Assembly (NCBI RefSeq): GCF_004793765.1
Contig: NZ_SRYM01000001.1
Coordinates: 124,001 to 188,000, forward strand
DNA length: 64,000 nucleotides
Direction: 5' to 3'
Source: Parabacteroides distasonis
Lineage (GTDB): Bacteria; Bacteroidota; Bacteroidia; Bacteroidales; Tannerellaceae
Shown here: piece by piece, positions 30,433 to 57,795 of the stretch
How the letters are laid out: every line of letters begins with the position of its first letter
Position numbering within the stretch: position 1 is the stretch's first letter
Made by a program: the position numbers and the translations under genes
The notes under the pieces: generated by a model
What the model saw: the letters and a program-made list of their open reading frames with translations, nothing else
The model's database searches: none
What the model was told of the DNA's origin: nothing

Positions 30433-33192
30433 TTATTTCACATTCCCAAATAACGTATTCCCAATTTCTGCTTGTTTCACTTCGATCTGTTCAGTGGGAA
30501 ATATGGTCGAATTCGCTAATGCTGTTTTATTATTTAGCAACTCGTCCAGTGTTTTATCAAATGATTTAAAACTACGACTCACTGCCATTGGATAATAAAT
30601 ATAGACATCCTTAGTTTGACCGATACGATAGACACGGTCTGTTGCCTGACTTTCTTTTGCGGGATTCCAATGCCTACTATAATGTATGACATGATTGGCT
30701 GCTGTTACATTCAGTCCCATGCCAGCCGCAATAGGTGACATTATAATTATATTGAAACCTTCCTTTTTTTGGAATTCATCTATTGCTTTCTGACGTGAAA
30801 CTTTATTACTTGATTTACTGTTCGATACATTCGCAGGCATATCCCCATTAATAATTTTAGCTTCTATCCCATAACGTTCAAAAGATATTCTTTGCAACAT
30901 TCTTTGTGTTTCTTTTCTTTCCGCAAAAAGGATAACCTTTTCATTCTTATCTCTTATTGTATCCAAAAACGGAATGGTAGCACGAAGACGTGCTGAAACA
31001 TTTATCAGTTCCGGTACATCATGTTGGCCTATCGTATGCTCGTAAAGATACGGATGTTCAGATATTTCCCGGATACGCAAAATAGTCTCCAGCATATTAC
31101 CATCTTCTTCATTATTAAATTCATCCACAACAGATTCATAAATTTCTTCCTGCTTTGCCGGCATTTCTATTTCTTGTTTCAATTCATATTTAACAGGTAA
31201 GTCTTTCGCCACATCCTTTTTCATACGTCGCATCAAATAAACACCCAAGCGTTTATGAATCTCATTGCCCAATTCTTCAATATCCGTATCTTCGTTCTTT
31301 AATGGAGTTTGATATTTTGCTGCAAATTCTTTGGCATTACCCAACAAACCAGGAACACAAAAGTCCATGATACACCACAAATCGACTAATGTATTCTCGA
31401 CAGGTGTACCGGTCATGGCTATTCTAAAATTACTTTTTAATGCCTTCACGGCATTTGTCACCAATGTACCCGGTGTTTTCACCTTTTGTGCTTCATCCAA
31501 AACAACAATATCAAATTCAACGGCACAAAAATTGAGTTGTGCGTTACGCAATGTTTCATAATTGGTCAGAATAATATCCATATTCTGCATTTTCTCTATC
31601 TCCTTTTCATCAAATTGGCGAGGGACCTCTTTTGTAGAAAGACGCTTGACTTTTAAATGCGGAGAGGTAAAAAAACGCTTGTATTCATTCTCCCAATTTT
31701 CTAACAACGAAGGAGGAACGACTATCAAATAGGGTTTGTGTTGCTGATGTTCGTGCGAATGCCAATCAATGAAATATAAAATTTGTAACGTCTTACCCAA
31801 CCCCATATCATCGGCCAACAAACAACCACCGGCATTATTCATATACAGATGTTGCAACCATGCAACACCTTCCTCTTGATGTGTCTTCAGCGTTATATTC
31901 TTTTGAAGATTGGGATTCGGATATAAGGTATATTTATCTTCATGTCTTAACCGAATATTATCCCATATATATATTTCATTCTCAATATTCTCCTCAATAA
32001 GAAGAACTGGAGGTGTTTCTTTAACAACCGGTGAATCACCATTCGGAGAAGTCTGATTTTCCAATTGCTTTTCTGCCTTTTTAGCGAGCAATTCAGCGTC
32101 TTCCAATGCTATTAGGTTATTTCTAAAATTGACTATCTCTTTTTTGTGTTCTTTGGTTTTATTTATTGCGACATATAATTCTTCTAAATCTTCTCTCGTT
32201 TTGATTGCCAAATAATTGGTTCCACCAGTAGAGGTCGTAATTTTTGCTACAACAATCCATTCTGTTTTATACGGACAGATAAAAGGATAAAACTTCGGTT
32301 TATAGACTCCGATATCAATCACTCTGTCACTATACAAATTAGACAAGTCGAATACATTTGGATCAAAATAGGCTGTTGGATGCTCTATAAGATCTTTCAC
32401 AAACTCTTTTGATTTATATTTACTTCCCGATTTCTTTAGCGTTTCAAGATCTTCTTTTTGTTGATGATTTAAGACCACTCGTACACGTTCTCCATTATCT
32501 TTCGATAGAGGATAAACACTGAGCACTTTTCGCATTCTTCCGAAGGTACTTGTAAACTTCTCTTTTTCTTCAATATCTATCGAAGGTTCAACTTTGATAC
32601 CTTCATCATCCACATCAATATGGATTGCTATCTTTTCTGGGACAAATACATTCTCATTGAGCAGATAACTGTCCAATTCACAACCGGATTCAATCGCTAA
32701 CGATTTTATTTCTGAAAAGCACCGCAGGTTATAGTCAAATGTTTTTTCATTGCTGTTTGCTTGATTATAACGACTGACTAACTCAGCAAGTCTATATTGT
32801 GTTTTTGGCAAAAGGTATTTTTGATTAGACGTAATCAATATATTCTTTAATCGATTATGCTCAATTAGCTCTCCTTTAGGTGTCAAATATTCCAATTGAT
32901 AGTTGAAATCAGAAAGATTAAGCGTTCCTTCCCCTCTTAACCGCATTGCCTTGTTGTAATACTTCGGAATGCCCAACAAATCCCTGTCTGTTTGTTCTAA
33001 CCGATAAATATTATCGAATGGAACAACGCAAGTTTGTTCCTGAATAGTCGCAAAACCATTATCTTTTAATGTCGATAATGGGAAATAATAGATACAGTCA
33101 TCCGTATTTATCCATTCAGCAAAATCTATATAATATTCGCCTTGACTGGCTGTAAAATTAAAACCGTCACTGTTTATGTCTAATCTTAGCAT
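30433..33192 (-). CDS. zorD: Zorya defence protein ZorD (SNF2-type helicase)
   Basis: 919 residues. The first half is Zorya-specific; the second is a full SNF2/Rad54-like ATPase: motif I DDMGLGKT with Lys467, motif II DEAQ (Asp566), motif III TGTPVENTLVDLW, motif V SPIAAGMGLNVTAANHVI and motif VI ATDRVYRIGQTKDV. In type I Zorya, ZorD is recruited with ZorC after phage infection and degrades the invading DNA with help of the ZorAB motor. It is shorter than the E. coli protein (about 1000 or more residues, from memory). It follows zorC after 1 nt. Confidence 0.9.
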   Translation of the reverse strand: MLRLDINSDGFNFTASQGEYYIDFAEWINTDDCIYYFPLSTLKDNGFATIQEQTCVVPFDNIYRLEQTDRDLLGIPKYYNKAMRLRGEGTLNLSDFNYQLEYLTPKGELIEHNRLKNILITSNQKYLLPKTQYRLAELVSRYNQANSNEKTFDYNLRCFSEIKSLAIESGCELDSYLLNENVFVPEKIAIHIDVDDEGIKVEPSIDIEEKEKFTSTFGRMRKVLSVYPLSKDNGERVRVVLNHQQKEDLETLKKSGSKYKSKEFVKDLIEHPTAYFDPNVFDLSNLYSDRVIDIGVYKPKFYPFICPYKTEWIVVAKITTSTGGTNYLAIKTREDLEELYVAINKTKEHKKEIVNFRNNLIALEDAELLAKKAEKQLENQTSPNGDSPVVKETPPVLLIEENIENEIYIWDNIRLRHEDKYTLYPNPNLQKNITLKTHQEEGVAWLQHLYMNNAGGCLLADDMGLGKTLQILYFIDWHSHEHQQHKPYLIVVPPSLLENWENEYKRFFTSPHLKVKRLSTKEVPRQFDEKEIEKMQNMDIILTNYETLRNAQLNFCAVEFDIVVLDEAQKVKTPGTLVTNAVKALKSNFRIAMTGTPVENTLVDLWCIMDFCVPGLLGNAKEFAAKYQTPLKNEDTDIEELGNEIHKRLGVYLMRRMKKDVAKDLPVKYELKQEIEMPAKQEEIYESVVDEFNNEEDGNMLETILRIREISEHPYLYEHTIGQHDVPELINVSARLRATIPFLDTIRDKNEKVILFAERKETQRMLQRISFERYGIEAKIINGDMPANVSNSKSSNKVSRQKAIDEFQKKEGFNIIIMSPIAAGMGLNVTAANHVIHYSRHWNPAKESQATDRVYRIGQTKDVYIYYPMAVSRSFKSFDKTLDELLNNKTALANSTIFPTEQIEVKQAEIGNTLFGNVK

Positions 33193-46183: not shown

Positions 46184-46938
46184 GTTTGGATAGGCAAGAT
46201 CGAATAGATCGATATATAAGAGGGGAGATGCCGGAGGGTGAGATGCAGGCTTTCGAACGGGATCTGGAAAAAGATGACTTCTTGTCTCATCAGTATGAGG
46301 AGACGCTTTTAATCGCGGAGTCTATCCGAGATGTCGCGGCGGATCGAGAGTTGATGGAAGCTTTCCGGATGACAAGTGAGGAGGAGATGAAGGCGTTCAT
46401 GAAGGAAAAGCGTTCCGGACGGCGTTTCTTGAATCGGGCGTCTTGGGTAGCGGCCGCTATATTGCTGGTAGCGGTCGTGACACGGATCCTGTTACTGCCG
46501 CCGTCTAAAAGTATGGAAGGTTTGTATCTGATGTATTATGAACCTGTCGGATACGAGGCATTGGTTTCTAGGGGTAGTGTTTCCGATGAACCGGATAAGC
46601 TTTTGCGGGAAGCCTTCGTTGAGTATAAGAAAGGGAATTACATCGCTGCGTTACGTGGATTTGAGTCTGCGCCTACTCTCACCGAAGAGATCTCTTTTTT
46701 CTCGGCCATTTGTTATTTAGAGCTAAATGATCCAGAGAATGCGATAGCCAGATTACTACCATTGGTGGAGATGGGGGATAAATGCCTTTATTTTCAACCG
46801 GCAGAATGGTATTTGTCCATGGCCTATTTAAAAAGTCACCAAAAGGAGAATGCACTTTCCTCTTTAAAGAGGATCGTGGAAACGGATGGCTTTTATGCGG
46901 AGAAGGCAAAGGCGATTTTGGATAAGTTGGAGGAGTGA
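46180..46938 (+). CDS. Membrane anti-sigma-like protein with periplasmic TPR domain
   Basis: 252 residues. An N-terminal cytoplasmic helical part (RIDRYIRGEMPEGEMQAFER) like anti-sigma domains, one membrane helix (about residues 87-108, WVAAAILLVAVVTRILLLP), then a periplasmic TPR region (YKKGNYIAALRGFESA, LNDPENAIARLLPL, LKSHQKENALSSL). It starts on the sigma-factor stop (ATGA), the classic sigma/anti-sigma arrangement. The periplasmic TPRs may bind a partner, perhaps the exported caspase. Confidence 0.82.
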   Translation: MSLDRQDRIDRYIRGEMPEGEMQAFERDLEKDDFLSHQYEETLLIAESIRDVAADRELMEAFRMTSEEEMKAFMKEKRSGRRFLNRASWVAAAILLVAVVTRILLLPPSKSMEGLYLMYYEPVGYEALVSRGSVSDEPDKLLREAFVEYKKGNYIAALRGFESAPTLTEEISFFSAICYLELNDPENAIARLLPLVEMGDKCLYFQPAEWYLSMAYLKSHQKENALSSLKRIVETDGFYAEKAKAILDKLEE

Positions 46939-46967
46939 GAAAGGCCGCTGAATAGATGTGAATTTTA

Positions 46968-47009
46968 TGGATAAGGGGGAGCTATGTTTCTATGCGCCCC
47001 CCTTATCTC
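46968..47009. terminator. Bidirectional hairpin between convergent operons
   Basis: Arms GGATAAGGGGG and CCCCCTTATC pair around a 17-nt loop, midway between the end of the anti-sigma gene (plus) and tyrA (minus). There is no long T tract on either side, so termination may be weak or Rho-aided. Confidence 0.55.
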
Positions 47010-47034
47010 CAGAACCTAGAGTCGGTACGTCCTA

Positions 47035-47808
47035 TCACTCGATATTCTTCCGTATCTTCGTCAGATACTCTTTCATCTTCTCGGAATCCTTATCCTTGAT
47101 GATTTCTTGCAAGATATGCAATTCCTCTTGTATCCGCTCGATTTGGCGAGGGGTACGGGGGTTGAAAAGGATCTCGGTCAATAGAAAATCGTCCTCGGAC
47201 AAAAGGCCGCGGGCGATTTTCATATGGCGTTTGAACGTCGTACCCGGAGCGTCCTGATGCTTCATCGTAGCGGCAAATACCATAGTGGAGGCGAAAGGGA
47301 TACCTAGTGAGTAGGCTACCACTTTATCGTGCTCCTCGAACGTGTATTCGCAGATATGCAGGCGGAGGCTGGAATAAATATCCTTGAAGAATATCTTGCC
47401 CAGATGATCGCCCTCGGAGATAATAATCGTATTCTCTTTCTCCAGTTGCCCCAGATTGGCGAATGTCGGTCCGAACATCGGGTGAGTGGAAACATACGGG
47501 AAACCGCATGTCTCATAAAACTCCTTCAAATAAGTCTTCACGGAAGCGATATCGGAAATGATACAATACGGTTGCAAGTAAGGCATCACGGCCTTGAAAG
47601 CCTCTATCGTGTAACTTAACGTCACGCAGTTGATGACCAACTCGGGATTGAAATCCTTAACCTCTTCCGGGCTTTGTAGGCGAAGGGCGTTATAGATAAA
47701 ACGCATACGTTTCGGATCTTTCTCCAATACGGCTACCTCATGATCAAAACTAAGCAGGTCGGTGAAGAAAGAACCCATCTTTCCTGCGCCTAAAATCAAT
47801 ATTTTCAT
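47035..47808 (-). CDS. tyrA: Prephenate dehydrogenase
   Basis: 257 residues. A Rossmann fold opens MKILILGAGKMGSFFTDLL (NAD-binding Gly motif), with THPMFGP further on, which is typical of TyrA. The enzyme oxidises and decarboxylates prephenate to 4-hydroxyphenylpyruvate on the route to tyrosine. No chorismate mutase or ACT domain is fused; the mutase comes from the preceding gene. Last gene of the pheA operon, 8 nt after the DAHP synthase gene. Confidence 0.92.
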   Translation of the reverse strand: MKILILGAGKMGSFFTDLLSFDHEVAVLEKDPKRMRFIYNALRLQSPEEVKDFNPELVINCVTLSYTIEAFKAVMPYLQPYCIISDIASVKTYLKEFYETCGFPYVSTHPMFGPTFANLGQLEKENTIIISEGDHLGKIFFKDIYSSLRLHICEYTFEEHDKVVAYSLGIPFASTMVFAATMKHQDAPGTTFKRHMKIARGLLSEDDFLLTEILFNPRTPRQIERIQEELHILQEIIKDKDSEKMKEYLTKIRKNIE

Positions 47809-47816
47809 CTTATAAA

Positions 47817-48887
47817 TTATTGTTCGTTCATGATAATCATTTGCTGGCGCACGGATTCCTCATGGATCTCCTTCAAGATCTCCTTTACAAAGTCTGGGCT
47901 CAAGTCCATTTGTTCACCCATGTTGGAGCGTTTCTCTAAGATCTCGCTGTAGCGGGGAGACTGCAAGATCGGCATATTGTGCTCTTTCTTATAAACGCCG
48001 ATCTCTTTGGAGATACGCATACGTTTAGCTAAAAGCTCCAATAATTGCTCGTCGATACCATCGATCTGGCGGCGAAGAGCGGTCAGGTTCTCGGTAGTCT
48101 GGTTTACGTCACGGATCACCAATAGGTTCAATACGTAGTCCAATACATCCGGGGTGATTTGCTGGGAAGCGTCGCTCCATGCGCAATCCGGGTTACAGTG
48201 AGACTCTACGATCAATCCGTCGAAACTCAAGTCCATCGCTTGCTGGCAAAGTGGGGCTACCAGCTCACGCTTACCACCGATGTGACTAGGATCACAGAAA
48301 ATAGGCAGATCCGGCATACGGCGGCGAAGCTCGATAGGAATATGCCACAACGGAAGGTTACGGTAGATCTTCTTGTCGTATGAGCTGAAACCTCTATGGA
48401 TAGCGCCTAAACGACGGATACCCGCCCGATACAAACGTTCGAACGCTCCGATCCATAACTCCAGGTCCGGGTTAACCGGGTTCTTGATCAATACAGGTAC
48501 ATCAACCCCTTTCAATGCGTCGGCGATCTCTTGGACAGCGAATGGGTTTACTGTCGTACGTGCTCCGATCCAAAGGATATCGATACCGGCTTTCAATGCC
48601 TCGAATACATGATCTTTAGTCGCTACCTCGGTAGATACCAGCATGCCGGTCTCTTTTTTCACTTTCTTCAACCAAGCCAATCCCTCGGCTCCGATGCCCT
48701 CGAATCCACCCGGTTTCGTACGAGGCTTCCAAATACCCGCACGGAATATCTTAACGCCTCTGGAGGCTAATCCTTGGGCTGTTTCTAACACTTGCTCTTC
48801 TGTCTCGGCGCTACAAGGGCCTGCGATTACGATAGGACGTTGTGTATCAACTCCCGGTAATGCTAACGGTTCAATCTTCATTTCCAT
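47817..48887 (-). CDS. aroF: Bifunctional 3-deoxy-7-phosphoheptulonate synthase/chorismate mutase
   Basis: 356 residues. Residues 1-260 are a KDO8P-synthase-like DAHP synthase: IVIAGPCSAETEEQ, RAGIWKPRTKPGGFEG, ILWIGARTTVNPF and FCDPSHIGGKREL, with CNPDCAWSDASQQI as the late metal-binding part. Residues 265-340 are an AroQ-type chorismate mutase (TALRRQIDGIDEQLLELLAK and RMRISKEIGVYK). So one polypeptide makes the first committed step and the branch-point step towards Phe and Tyr. The symbol aroF is by function; it is also called aroA(G)-type. Sits between the aminotransferase and tyrA. Confidence 0.93.
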   Translation of the reverse strand: MEMKIEPLALPGVDTQRPIVIAGPCSAETEEQVLETAQGLASRGVKIFRAGIWKPRTKPGGFEGIGAEGLAWLKKVKKETGMLVSTEVATKDHVFEALKAGIDILWIGARTTVNPFAVQEIADALKGVDVPVLIKNPVNPDLELWIGAFERLYRAGIRRLGAIHRGFSSYDKKIYRNLPLWHIPIELRRRMPDLPIFCDPSHIGGKRELVAPLCQQAMDLSFDGLIVESHCNPDCAWSDASQQITPDVLDYVLNLLVIRDVNQTTENLTALRRQIDGIDEQLLELLAKRMRISKEIGVYKKEHNMPILQSPRYSEILEKRSNMGEQMDLSPDFVKEILKEIHEESVRQQMIIMNEQ

Positions 48888-48921
48888 CTTTGTGATCTAT
48901 ATTTTAATTTTCAATTTTCAG

Positions 48922-50100
48922 TTATAAATTCTCAATTCTCTTCAAGGCTTCTTCTAAAGTCTCGTTCTTGCAGCAAAGGGATATACGGATATAACGCTCG
49001 CCACGACTACCGAAGATAAATCCCGGCGTAAGGAATACGTTTGCCTCGTATAGCACCTTGTTGGCGATTGCTTCGCCGCTCTCGGCGGAGTCTGGGATAT
49101 GTCCCCAAAGGAACATACCTACTTGGTTCTCGTCGTACTCGCATCCCAAGGTACGCATGATTTGTCCGGCAAGGTCCCGGCGGCTACGGTAGACACGATT
49201 CATGTTATCGTACCATTCTTTCTTTGCGCTCAGGGCTTCTACCGCCGCATATTGCATCGGCTTGAACTGTCCGGAGTCGATATTGCTTTTTACCTTCAGT
49301 ATCCATTGGACGAATTGGGCGTTGGAAGCCAGCATCGCCATACGCCAACCCGGCATATTATGAGCCTTGCTCATGGAGTTCATCTCGATACAGATCTCTT
49401 TGGCTCCCGGTATGCTTAAGATACTTAGCGGATGCTCGTTCAAGATGAAGCTATAGGGGTTATCATTACATATAATAATACCGTGCTTCCGGCCGAAGGC
49501 CACCAGTTTCTCGTATAGCTCTACGCTAGCGTTCGCCCCTGTGGGCATATTCGGGTAATTGGTCCACATCAGCTTTACGTTGGAGAGATCCATTTTCTCC
49601 AGTTCCTCGAAATCCGGTTGCCATCCCAATTCCTCTTTCAGCTCGTAAGGGATCAAACGGGCCTCTACCAGTTTGCTGACGGAACTATACGTCGGATATC
49701 CCGGATTCGGAACCAGTACGCCATCCCCCGGATTCAGGAATGCCAGCGAGATATGCAAGATTCCTTCTTTGGAGCCGATGAGTGGTTGGATCTCTGTTTT
49801 CGGGTCCAAGTCTACGTTATACCACGTCTTGTACCAATCGGCGAATCCTTTACGCAGTTCCGGTATGCCGACGTACGGCTGATAACCGTGTTCGTTCGCT
49901 TTGCGGGCATGTTCACACAACGTCTCGATGGTCTGTTCCGAAGGTGGAAGGTCGGGGCTGCCTACACCAAGGTTAATGACGTTCTTGCCTGCGGCGTTCA
50001 TCTCGGCTACTTCCTTCAGTTTCTTGGAGAAGTAGTATTCCTGTACGCTACCTACACGGTTAGCGGGTGTAATATTACACGCTTTGTTTTCCTTCTGCAT
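48922..50100 (-). CDS. PLP-dependent class I/II aminotransferase of the aromatic operon
   Basis: 392 residues, fold-type I aminotransferase. The PLP lysine is in MNSMSKAHNMPGWRM, with WTNYPNMPTGA, ICNDNPYSF and the final Arg in GERYIRISLCC. The gene overlaps pheA by 26 nt and precedes the DAHP synthase, so the likely reaction is transamination of prephenate or of phenylpyruvate and 4-hydroxyphenylpyruvate. The sequence class is close to LL-diaminopimelate and aspartate aminotransferases, so context carries the assignment. Confidence 0.85.
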   Translation of the reverse strand: MQKENKACNITPANRVGSVQEYYFSKKLKEVAEMNAAGKNVINLGVGSPDLPPSEQTIETLCEHARKANEHGYQPYVGIPELRKGFADWYKTWYNVDLDPKTEIQPLIGSKEGILHISLAFLNPGDGVLVPNPGYPTYSSVSKLVEARLIPYELKEELGWQPDFEELEKMDLSNVKLMWTNYPNMPTGANASVELYEKLVAFGRKHGIIICNDNPYSFILNEHPLSILSIPGAKEICIEMNSMSKAHNMPGWRMAMLASNAQFVQWILKVKSNIDSGQFKPMQYAAVEALSAKKEWYDNMNRVYRSRRDLAGQIMRTLGCEYDENQVGMFLWGHIPDSAESGEAIANKVLYEANVFLTPGFIFGSRGERYIRISLCCKNETLEEALKRIENL

Positions 50101-50920
50101 ATTCGCCTAATATTTTTAAGTCTTTTGTTAATGGTCTGATAGCGTCCAACGCTTGTTTGTAACGGGTGAAATCCGTGAAAGTAAGATTAATGTAGAACAA
50201 GTATTCCCATTCACGCCCGATAATAGGCAAGGATTGTATTTTAGAGAGATTCATGTCGTAAAAAGAGAGAACGGAGAGGACTTTGGAAAGGCTGCCGGAA
50301 GTGTGGGGAAGGGCGAATACGAGAGAGGATTTGTTTTTATCGGTTCCTCGAAGCATCTCATCCGCTGTCCAGCGGTCCGCTATAGCGAGGAAGCGGGTGA
50401 AATTCCGTTTGTTTGTCTCGATCCCCTCGGCAAGGACTTCCATGTTATAGATCCGGGCGGCCAGTTTTCCGCATATCGCCGCATGTCCTTTCAATTGGTT
50501 CTCCGAGATCCACCGGGCACTCATGGCGGTATCCTCTTTCTCTACCACCTTGGCGTTGGGCAGGGTATCCAAGTAATCGGTACATTGCATCAATGCGATC
50601 GGGTGGGAGTTGACCTCCGTTATATCATGTATAGAGGTTCCCGGAAGAGCTACCAAGGAATGGGAGATACGTAGCTTATACTCGCCGGTGACGCTCAGCC
50701 CGCTTTCACGGATCAGCTCATGGTTTTGAAGGAGGCTTCCCGCTATCGTATTCTCGATGGCCATCATGCCTAGTACGGACGGGTCTTTCTTGATCGTCGT
50801 GATAACATCCCGAAACGTATTGCAAGGGATGATTTCTATTTCTTCACCTTCATGATAATTACGGGCGGCGATGTCGTGATACGAACCGGCTATTCCCTGT
50901 ATTGCTACTTTCTTTTTCAT
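50075..50920 (-). CDS. pheA: Prephenate dehydratase
   Basis: 281 residues. The catalytic periplasmic-binding-like domain (KVAIQGIAGSYHDIAAR, IENTIAGSLLQNHELI and RNFTRFLAI, with the conserved Thr-Arg-Phe motif) converts prephenate to phenylpyruvate. A C-terminal ACT domain (SLVFALPHTSGSLSKVLSVL, then QSLPIIGREWEYLFYIN) is the usual phenylalanine feedback site. No chorismate mutase is fused. First structural gene of the operon, 33 nt after the attenuator terminator. Confidence 0.95.
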   Translation of the reverse strand: MKKKVAIQGIAGSYHDIAARNYHEGEEIEIIPCNTFRDVITTIKKDPSVLGMMAIENTIAGSLLQNHELIRESGLSVTGEYKLRISHSLVALPGTSIHDITEVNSHPIALMQCTDYLDTLPNAKVVEKEDTAMSARWISENQLKGHAAICGKLAARIYNMEVLAEGIETNKRNFTRFLAIADRWTADEMLRGTDKNKSSLVFALPHTSGSLSKVLSVLSFYDMNLSKIQSLPIIGREWEYLFYINLTFTDFTRYKQALDAIRPLTKDLKILGEYAEGKQSV

Positions 50921-50952
50921 CTTGTTTCTCTATTTTTACTCTAAACTGTTAC

Positions 50953-50988
50953 AAACAAAAAAAGTCCCACCGAAATCGGCAGGACTTT
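50953..50988 (-). terminator. Attenuator terminator in front of pheA
   Basis: On the minus strand AAAGTCC and GGACTTT close a hairpin with inner pairs TGCCGA/TCGGTG, followed by seven T residues. It ends 33 nt before the pheA ATG. Its left arm (UCCUGCC, complementary to 50978-50984) can pair instead with GGCAGGA inside the leader ORF (complementary to 51037-51043), forming an antiterminator. Confidence 0.9.
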
Positions 50989-51024
50989 ATATTTTATTGA
51001 TATTTATATTCAATCATCAACGCT

Positions 51025-51099
51025 TTACATACAAACTCCTGCCCTTACTCCGCTAAAGTAAAAGTAATAAAAGTAATATGTAAAGCTAAATCGATTCAT
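51025..51099 (-). CDS. pheL: Phe/Tyr-rich attenuation leader peptide (pheL-like)
   Basis: A 24-codon frame in the transcribed leader of the pheA operon. Ten of codons 4-15 are aromatic: Phe at 4, 6, 10, 13 and 15, Tyr at 8, 9, 11, 12 and 14. The stop codon lies 36 nt before the terminator hairpin. Low charged tRNA-Phe or tRNA-Tyr should stall the ribosome upstream of the antiterminator strand (codons 19-21, AGG GCA GGA). The strand would then pair with the terminator arm and the operon would be read. The layout is that of classical pheA and trp attenuators. Confidence 0.9.
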   Translation of the reverse strand: MNRFSFTYYFYYFYFSGVRAGVCM

Positions 51100-51124
51100 T
51101 GTCTCTTTGTTTTTAAATACGCAG

Positions 51125-51158
51125 CAAAAGTAACGCTTTTTTGGAAACTACAAGCAAA
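51125..51158 (-). promoter_or_regulatory. Promoter of the pheA operon leader
   Basis: Minus strand has TACTTTTG (51125-51132), an exact TAnnTTTG -7 element, with TTTG (51155-51158) 22 nt upstream as a -33 box. The predicted transcript begins about 20 nt before the leader-peptide ATG. Confidence 0.6.
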
Positions 51159-51281
51159 AAGTGATATTTTTTTTCTGTTACATTTAAATTTTATCTTAAC
51201 TGTTTCTGTATTTCTGTGGAGACACGCCTGCGTACCGTTAGTTTGCGTTCATCCGCTATTTTATTAATCCTTGAATCAGGC

Positions 51282-51863
51282 TTATTCCGCTTGTGCTTCT
51301 TTATTCCGTTTATGTAAGCTTTTCAGTTCGAAGGATAACATGATACGGAATATTCCTATTATTAATAAGGCATAAGCGACCATGTAGACCAATGTGAAGG
51401 CTCCCAAAGCGGGTTGCCAGATAATGCCGATGGAGCAAAGGATTGCCAAGATACCGAATACCATGTACCATCCCCAGTTCCGTGTACCGTATCGTTTCAG
51501 GTCCATCGAATAACCGGTAGCCGAGAAGCCTCTGAACATAAGCCAGAATGCCAAGATAAACGGAAGCACCTCCATGCTAAGTCTCGGGCTTGCCATCAAG
51601 AATATACCTAAGATCAAGTCGATAATACCTCCAGCCAAATACCATCCCCAGCTGTTGATACCCTTTTTGTTCGCCAAGGCGAAAGCGATCTCGAACAAGC
51701 CGCTTACGAACATAGAGACGCTGAATAAGATACTAAGTGCTACGTAGCTCGCTAATGGCGCGAACATTAAATAAATAGCGACGATGATGTAAAGCAGTCC
51801 GACCAATAGTGATAACCACCAATTCTTGACCGCGTAATCCATTTTATCAATAAATGTTTTCAT
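51282..51863 (-). CDS. HdeD family (DUF308) membrane protein
   Basis: 193 residues with six hydrophobic segments in three repeated hairpins, for example WWLSLLVGLLYIIVAIYL, GWYLAGGIIDLILGIFL and GWYMVFGILAILCSIGII. This repeated GW--G--D--LG pattern defines the HdeD/DUF308 family, known in E. coli for acid resistance. No hdeAB-like gene is near. Function here is unproved. Confidence 0.88.
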   Translation of the reverse strand: MKTFIDKMDYAVKNWWLSLLVGLLYIIVAIYLMFAPLASYVALSILFSVSMFVSGLFEIAFALANKKGINSWGWYLAGGIIDLILGIFLMASPRLSMEVLPFILAFWLMFRGFSATGYSMDLKRYGTRNWGWYMVFGILAILCSIGIIWQPALGAFTLVYMVAYALLIIGIFRIMLSFELKSLHKRNKEAQAE

Positions 51864-57648: not shown

Positions 57649-57673
57649 ATCTAAACCTCTATAAAACAATTAA

Positions 57674-57795
57674 GGATTGCCTCCCGGCAATCCCTAACCA
57701 ACTTTGTTAACCTTAAATCTAATACTATTATGAAAAAACCACAGTGCAAATGTACTGCTTTCTATATATCTGTCAATAGAATAAGTGCTAATTAG
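57674..57795 (+). other. Orphan leader of SusC type with a 21-codon stump
   Basis: An 8-bp GGATTGCC/GGCAATCC hairpin (57674-57693), then TAACCAACTTTGTTAACC and CTTAAATCTAATACTATT directly before an ATG (57730). This resembles the stretch I know from in front of SusC/TonB receptor genes of Parabacteroides. The frame MKKPQCKCTAFYISVNR ends at TAG 57795. No receptor gene follows. It may be a scar of a lost PUL gene. Confidence 0.4.

Follow-up and report, generated by a model that had tools for sequence, protein, structure and literature searches.

Organization of the pheA leader region

On the minus strand of the 64-kb stretch analyzed here (hereafter, the window), a short ORF rich in Phe and Tyr codons stands before pheA, followed by a hairpin with a U tract. 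The question raised by this locus is whether the ORF and the hairpin together control the genes behind them. A reading made from the DNA alone (the sequence-only reading) had proposed a Phe/Tyr attenuator composed of a promoter, a 24-codon leader, an intrinsic terminator, and pheA in this order, and all of these elements were found on the minus strand (Table 1). Its count of ten Phe/Tyr codons in the leader was confirmed, and its assignment of the host to the Bacteroidetes agreed with the closest records, which were Parabacteroides among the matches listed. The genes of the operon are in the order pheA, aminotransferase, DAHP synthase-chorismate mutase, and prephenate dehydrogenase.

Table 1 Features of the pheA leader and operon, with positions in the window
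Feature	Sequence or size	Position	Strand	Evidence
Possible −33 region	TTTTTGCTTG	51151..51160	−	TTG criterion, loose
−7 promoter box, fits TAnnTTTG	TACTTTTG	51125..51132	−	Sequence and relatives
Leader peptide ORF	MNRFSFTYYFYYFYFSGVRAGVCM; 24 codons, 5 Phe and 5 Tyr	51025..51099	−	Sequence, relatives, density ranking
Protector helix, 5' strand (codons 5–8)	GCUUUACAU	51078..51086	−	Folding, covariation
Protector helix, 3' strand (last codon, stop codon, and 3 nt)	AUGUAAAGC	51022..51030	−	Covariation
Antiterminator, 5' strand	GGCAGGAGUUUGUAU	51029..51043	−	Conservation, folding, pairing test
Small hairpin within antiterminator loop	GUUGAU...AUCAAU	50996..51021	−	Weakly supported
Antiterminator, 3' strand (overlaps terminator left arm)	AUAUAAAGUCCUGCC	50978..50992	−	Folding, alignment
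Intrinsic terminator	12-pair stem and U tract	50957..50988	−	Folding, alignment, scan
pheA, prephenate dehydratase	281 aa	50075..50920	−	
Operon aminotransferase	392 aa	48922..50100	−	
DAHP synthase-chorismate mutase fusion	356 aa	47817..48887	−	
tyrA-like prephenate dehydrogenase	257 aa	47035..47808	−	
HdeD-like gene upstream of leader		51282..51863	−	

The −7 box fits TAnnTTTG, which we take to be the Bacteroidales promoter consensus, as the sequence-only reading also did. In rows with at least 60 nt of upstream DNA, the window included, TAnnTTTG was present in 71 of 72, at a median of 26 nt 5' of the leader ATG, and a TTG was located 16–24 nt 5' of the box in 64 of 72 by a loose criterion. 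A sigma-70 promoter scan was set aside as its model is not meant for a taxon of the Bacteroidales type.

When ORFs of 10–45 codons from either strand of the window were ranked by Phe/Tyr density, the leader ORF came first with 10 such residues in 12, and the next separate ORFs had 9, 8, and 7. Another Phe/Tyr-rich ORF of 24 codons, MSNLSISINFNFYLFFVFYFFFEN, was seen as DNA alone at position 33176 of the plus strand; it may be a chance product of AT-rich DNA.

The terminator stem extends from 50988 to 50961 and its seven-T run from 50963 to 50957 (minus strand). A generic terminator scan of positions 46900–51300 revealed no excess (4 found versus 4.3 expected), and the stem before pheA was the longest of the four, with 12 pairs compared to 7, 5, and 5. 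The lack of excess, together with the HdeD-like gene on the same strand, would suit a hairpin that is merely the terminator of that upstream gene, with the leader ORF arising by chance. We regard this as next to inconceivable, because the promoter box conserved before the leader lies between the HdeD-like gene and the leader, leader and terminator accompany pheA in many families, and the leader and the terminator arm co-vary, as described below.

The position of the hairpin also bears on whether the leader could control translation of pheA, by sequestration or reinitiation, instead of its transcription. Leader ORFs very near a gene may act via reinitiation, at distances of 10–14 nt in the cases treated in PMC4833913. 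The leader stop codon in the window is 104 nt from the pheA start, far above that range, and the alternative hairpin and U tract end 36 nt before pheA, as for an intrinsic terminator; translational control is therefore highly unlikely.

Conservation of the leader in close relatives

Near relatives were collected by a PheA protein search, from which the best 80 of 298 loci, mostly Parabacteroides, Tannerella, and other Tannerellaceae records, were used. The complete device, i.e., leader, antiterminator, and terminator, was found at 74 of the 80 pheA loci. It was missing in two (L070 and L073), where by eye pheA follows close behind coding-looking DNA. The other four were not fully readable: the device was partial in L011 (contig start) and L055 (run of N), and L032 and L066 had too little upstream DNA. 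Conservation of the leader ORF and the alternating hairpins, on which the sequence-only reading had staked its proposal, was thus borne out.

In 55 of the 72 motif-bearing rows, GGCAGG lies 11 nt from the last Phe/Tyr codon found within the first 20 residues. Neither AGGAG nor GGAGG occurred within 20 nt 5' of the leader ATG in any of 72 rows. As for codon usage, Phe was encoded by TTT 367 times and by TTC 33 times in the leaders of 75 rows (window included; the sequences are related and not independent), compared with 331 TTT and 371 TTC over codons 1–270 of pheA in the same rows. The TTT bias of the leader could be due to selection for a slow codon or to a constraint on the RNA.

The sequence-only reading had further claimed that GGCAGGA in the leader and UCCUGCC in the left arm of the terminator form a mutually exclusive antiterminator. 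GGCAGGA (51043–51037) is fully complementary to TCCTGCC (50984–50978), and the claim was upheld by this complementarity, by conservation in the near relatives, and by the pairing test described below. In eight loci (L047, L054, L060, L065, L069, L071, L072, and L075), a stop codon precedes GGCAGG and the motif is still retained, indicating a role as RNA and not just as codons. In L080, the leader carries GACAGG, and the terminator arm has the matching CCTGTC. An alignment of 74 rows (73 loci and the window; L063, with an interrupted T tract, was left out) had 99.4% of the antiterminator cells and 98.2% of the terminator cells paired. At two positions, the right arm of the terminator offers G-U where the antiterminator has a Watson-Crick pair (58 and 40 of the 74 rows), so the antiterminator is favored. 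As GGCAGGA was nearly invariant in the near relatives, covariation in the antiterminator was slight, with one two-sided cell, and proof by covariation therefore had to come from distant loci.

The start of the leader can also pair with its end. For this protector helix, 91.6% of the cells were paired with 60 two-sided changes, compared with 17.6–61.7% and 7–25 changes when the partner strand was slid. Among 500 shuffles, none reached the paired share or the two-sided count and 54 reached the number of pair types; these controls are generous, as the helix was read off the window sequence and the cells are sequences, not events. The small hairpin GUUGAU...AUCAAU had 66.1% of its cells paired against 26.8–48.1% in slid controls, and its two-sided changes were no higher than in those controls. 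The protector helix, like the roughly 10-nt spacing, the class-wide distribution, and the sister leaders reported below, was absent from the sequence-only reading.

Folding of the three states

Assuming four start sites from 51119 to 51131, the window RNA was predicted to fold without a ribosome into the protector structure and the terminator. Stalled ribosomes were modeled as covering 14 nt counted from the first base of the A-site codon. With the A site at each of codons 4–15, the lowest-energy fold of the window was the antiterminator (−23.3 to −29.8 kcal/mol). With the A site at codon 16, the first past the Phe/Tyr run, it was the terminator, and likewise when the ribosome was placed at the stop codon (−17.7 kcal/mol). 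The margin of the antiterminator over an enforced terminator at codons 8, 10, 12, and 15 was 1.8, 4.3, 5.2, and 1.4 kcal/mol, respectively; given the narrow margins at codons 8 and 15, where the switch occurs depends on the footprint assumed for the ribosome.

Equilibrium folding was extended to 66 loci. Without a ribosome, 62 formed the terminator and 4 the antiterminator, and with a ribosome at the stop codon all 66 formed the terminator. The antiterminator was obtained at any stalled codon in 26 of 66 loci and at the last codon in 11, compared with 0.1 of 66 in a shuffled-middle control; these folds include the whole terminator and are too blunt for distant members. Given that stalled folds reached the antiterminator in only 26 loci, the outcome in most members must be set by the order in which the strands are made and not by stability. 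The parts of an attenuator found here are a Phe/Tyr-rich ORF before the operon, an intrinsic terminator recognized by sequence, an antiterminator exclusive with it and so placed that a stalled ribosome would leave it free and one at the stop codon would cover it, and, in the window and its close relatives, the protector helix, which in those sequences would complete the classical three-state switch.

Distribution in Bacteroidales and other Bacteroidia

The Bacteroidales were sampled at nearly one genome per family; this gave 119 genomes, 49 of which had a PheA domain. Upstream DNA was read for 48 of them (the window's own locus was left out; one of the 48 is from its genus), and 47 were retained since L116 was cut at 130 nt. 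ORFs were scored as leaders if they began with ATG and had six or more Phe/Tyr within 12 residues. Such a leader was present upstream of pheA in 41 of 47 loci, versus 4 of 48 in the antisense control, and Phe/Tyr leaders with a GTG start at L108 and L120 brought the total to 43 of 47. L127 has a weak leader, MKNINKFYFYIHHPAT, with four Phe/Tyr followed by a hairpin, and no Phe/Tyr leader was found at L092, L101, and L122 (3 of the 47 readable loci). The terminator finder missed five loci at which hairpins were visible by eye. Terminators with 15-pair stems were seen in L111 and L118, from two families of this sample.

The wider phylum sample consisted of 198 genomes, 172 of them with PheA, from which 32 of 44 loci of the same class (other orders) and 28 of 127 others were read. 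By the same rule, a leader was found in 26 of the 32 other-order Bacteroidia loci; the antisense control gave 2 of 60 for both outer samples. The five families of other orders had leaders in 5/5, 4/5, 0/2, 15/15, and 2/5 loci; the six loci lacking one thus included both of one family. In the other classes of the phylum, a leader was found in 4 and missing in 24 of the 28 sampled loci.

Own-versus-other pairing of the antiterminator

The terminator left arm of each locus was paired with a stretch of up to 48 nt beginning at the last Phe/Tyr codon of the same locus, and with the corresponding stretches of other loci. The comparison covered 65 loci in which a terminator had been detected, leaving out L112, which is of the same genus as the window. 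The mean energy was −12.6 kcal/mol for own pairing and −8.7 kcal/mol for permuted pairing (z = −14.6), and none of 20,000 permutations was as good. The effect was present both in Bacteroidales (36 loci, z = −10.7) and in the other orders (25 loci, z = −8.1); in the four other-class loci it was weak, with 834 of 20,000 permutations as good. When the own stretch was shuffled, 5% or fewer of the shuffles were as good in 53 of 65 loci; 12 of 65 missed the 5% level.

The pairing strand started at a median of 10 nt (quartiles, 9 and 12) past the last Phe/Tyr codon. Since the ribosome footprint extends some 12 nt beyond the codon being translated (PMC4833913), the strand starts about at the 3' edge of the ribosome.

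Tyr codons in the leader follow the content of the operon

Downstream DNA was read for 39 Bacteroidales loci with a leader. L098 and L112, for which no downstream DNA was taken, and L092, L101, L108, L116, L120, L122, and L127, which had no rule-passing leader or were cut, lay outside this test. DAHP synthase-chorismate mutase was encoded downstream on the same strand in 35 of 39 loci. In these 35 operon loci, prephenate dehydrogenase was shown in 33, namely 23 by tblastn and 10 by Pfam, with L095 and L111 remaining: tblastn with the window TyrA gave no dehydrogenase in 12, and Pfam assigned prephenate dehydrogenase to the ORFs in the gap in 10 of 10. The dehydrogenase is 2–3 kb behind the mutase in some loci and was counted by its presence in the stretch, not by transcript. 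In the remaining four loci, L084, L088, L110, and L128, neither synthase nor dehydrogenase was found after pheA (within 6.0 kb in L088 and 7.5 kb in the others).

The leaders of these four pheA-alone loci contained 0, 1, 0, and 0 core Tyr codons, respectively, and kept their Phe codons. All 35 operon leaders had at least one core Tyr codon and 34 had at least two. Accordingly, one or no core Tyr codon was observed in 4/4 pheA-alone and 1/35 operon loci (Fisher p = 6e-5), and none at all in 3/4 and 0/35 (Fisher p = 4e-4). In a PheA tree of 40 rows, the pheA-alone state required four changes, forced by well-supported branches; most simply, these are four separate operon splits, though a gain and a loss may stand in for two gains, and the tree is one of a protein and not of species. 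The absence or rarity of Tyr codons where pheA stands alone is natural evidence that they are present because the operon makes Tyr. This result supported the proposal of the sequence-only reading that one leader serves two amino acids.

In the four pheA-alone genomes, the dehydrogenase and synthase genes were located on other contigs. A Phe+Tyr leader with a terminator was found before an aminotransferase operon in G028 and G099, before a dehydrogenase-synthase pair in G018, and before the dehydrogenase in G038, whose synthase gene is at a contig end. No Phe+Tyr leader was found upstream of the second synthase copy of G099. Antiterminator pairing of these sister leaders was reached by 0.6% or fewer of the shuffles in four of five; the first of the tandem leaders of G099 was weak (4.6%). 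The tandem arrangement itself, two Phe/Tyr leaders and two terminators before aminotransferase, dehydrogenase, and DAHP synthase genes (L251), was seen in G099.

Comparison with RNA families

At the gathering threshold, no Rfam leader family matched the window or any of 11 further loci. In a permissive search, RF01859 (Phe_leader) scored 20.5 bits against a threshold of 55 (E = 0.35) and was fifth by score among 20 weak matches; with a score this far below the threshold, membership in RF01859 was rejected. The region offers a candidate RNA family below Rfam recognition.

A conserved, structured 5' region before an amino-acid operon might also be a riboswitch or T-box that binds Phe/Tyr or uncharged tRNA directly, with the ORF incidental. 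This is highly improbable, as no T-box or riboswitch family was detected by Rfam at threshold in the same 12 loci, distant loci share both the Phe/Tyr codon content and the spacing, and the Tyr codons track the operon content. Alternatively, the terminated leader RNA may chiefly be a small RNA acting elsewhere: an RNA of about 160 nt with its own promoter and terminator would resemble one, and Bacteroides sRNAs have been catalogued (PMC7366714). No Rfam sRNA matched the leader at threshold, however, and its place before pheA and its codon content explain the constraint without any target, which makes a chiefly sRNA function highly improbable. The leader RNA may have an extra sRNA role besides attenuation. 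Elsewhere in the window, positions 57660–57742 of the minus strand matched the Bacteroidetes sRNA family FopS (RF04319) with 62 bits.

Proposed mechanism and its relation to known attenuators

On the basis of the observed anatomy, conservation, compensating pairs, spacing, three-state folding, and match between codons and operon, we propose that this region very probably controls the Phe/Tyr operon by ribosome-mediated transcription attenuation, with charged tRNA-Phe and tRNA-Tyr as the signals sensed. We infer its transcription start, leader translation, actual termination, and starvation response as follows. RNA polymerase would start about 20 nt 5' of the leader ORF, and a ribosome would follow. 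When Phe or Tyr is short, the ribosome would stall in the Phe/Tyr run at codons 4–15 with its 3' edge just before or short of GGCAGGA, leaving GGCAGGA to pair with the newly made UCCUGCC; the terminator would then be blocked and the operon transcribed. When both amino acids are plentiful, the ribosome would reach the stop codon and cover GGCAGGA, UCCUGCC would pair with its downstream partner, and transcription would end. If no ribosome is loaded, the protector helix would form between the start and the end of the leader, and the terminator would form.

Leader-peptide attenuation was worked out in Proteobacteria. E. coli pheL (RF01859) is a Phe-rich leader before pheA with a protector, an antiterminator, and a terminator. 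The present leader is like pheL in all these respects, and unlike it in its mixed Phe and Tyr codons, in an operon that also makes Tyr, and in the lack of AGGAG/GGAGG before the leader. Sensing of more than one amino acid of its operon by a single leader is a feature of the ilv and thr attenuators of Proteobacteria, from which the present one differs in its amino acids and lineage.

Outside Proteobacteria and Actinobacteria, His leader peptides have been described before hisZ and hisS* in bacilli; these are leader-peptide attenuators too, but in Firmicutes and for His, and the authors stated in 2010 that, to their knowledge, no case had been shown there before their own (PMC2965389). The sequence-only reading had held attenuation to be much less described in Bacteroidetes than in Proteobacteria. 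This stands with the qualification that it is not wholly unreported: structured 5' elements before pheA and hisG were presented in Flavobacteriaceae, the one before pheA being conserved, and a Flavobacterium was reported to show strong clues of attenuation by leader peptides (ISME Commun. 2021, PMC9723704). These elements concern the same genes and the same class as the Parabacteroides leader; they came from the transcriptome of one fish pathogen and, in the part of that report concerned, were described without leader sequence, codons, or antiterminator. Leader-like small ORFs are mentioned for B. thetaiotaomicron in PMC7366714. Searches of open-licence literature brought up no account of this leader for Bacteroidales; a comparative study by Lopatovskaya et al. 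(2010) may predict some. The kind of mechanism is known, and the Bacteroidales-wide family, the spacing rule, and the retuning of pheA-alone leaders were not found described in that literature.

The present results provide an in-silico case for leader-peptide attenuation in many Bacteroidia, a class with many gut bacteria. The four sampled lineages in which pheA moved from the operon serve as natural experiments, in which the codon content follows the genes controlled. The evidence is evenly poised on a broader idea, in which the attenuator would be ancestral to Bacteroidia, its mechanism being kept while nearly all of its sequence was replaced and its codons were retuned upon each split (a Phe leader for pheA alone and Phe+Tyr leaders for the remainder). 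The idea is tempered by the sample outside Bacteroidales, which comprises five families, one of them without a leader. If it is true, ribosome-polymerase coupling of the grade needed for attenuation would be general and old in Bacteroidia, despite non-Shine-Dalgarno initiation. The in-silico case made here turns the question of such coupling in this class into a simple reporter test.

Other leaders in the genome

Other amino-acid genes of the window's own genome were also inspected, and the His and Ile/Leu/Val leaders seen there speak for attenuation at pheA as well. The DNA upstream of trpE, which by eye follows a trpB-like end, gave just one short ORF (8 codons, two of them Trp) and no terminator; the 2.2 kb before the homoserine dehydrogenase gene contained nothing above thresholds. 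A His leader peptide, MKITTALHHHHHYSGQ, and a terminator were present upstream of hisG (L190), where 8.2% of shuffles were as good as the putative antiterminator pairing. An Ile/Leu/Val leader, MMNNVLHIILVVVLLVISR, with a terminator was located before ilvD (L192), its ATG 200 nt 5' of the gene, and its antiterminator pairing was supported, with 2.3% of shuffles as good.
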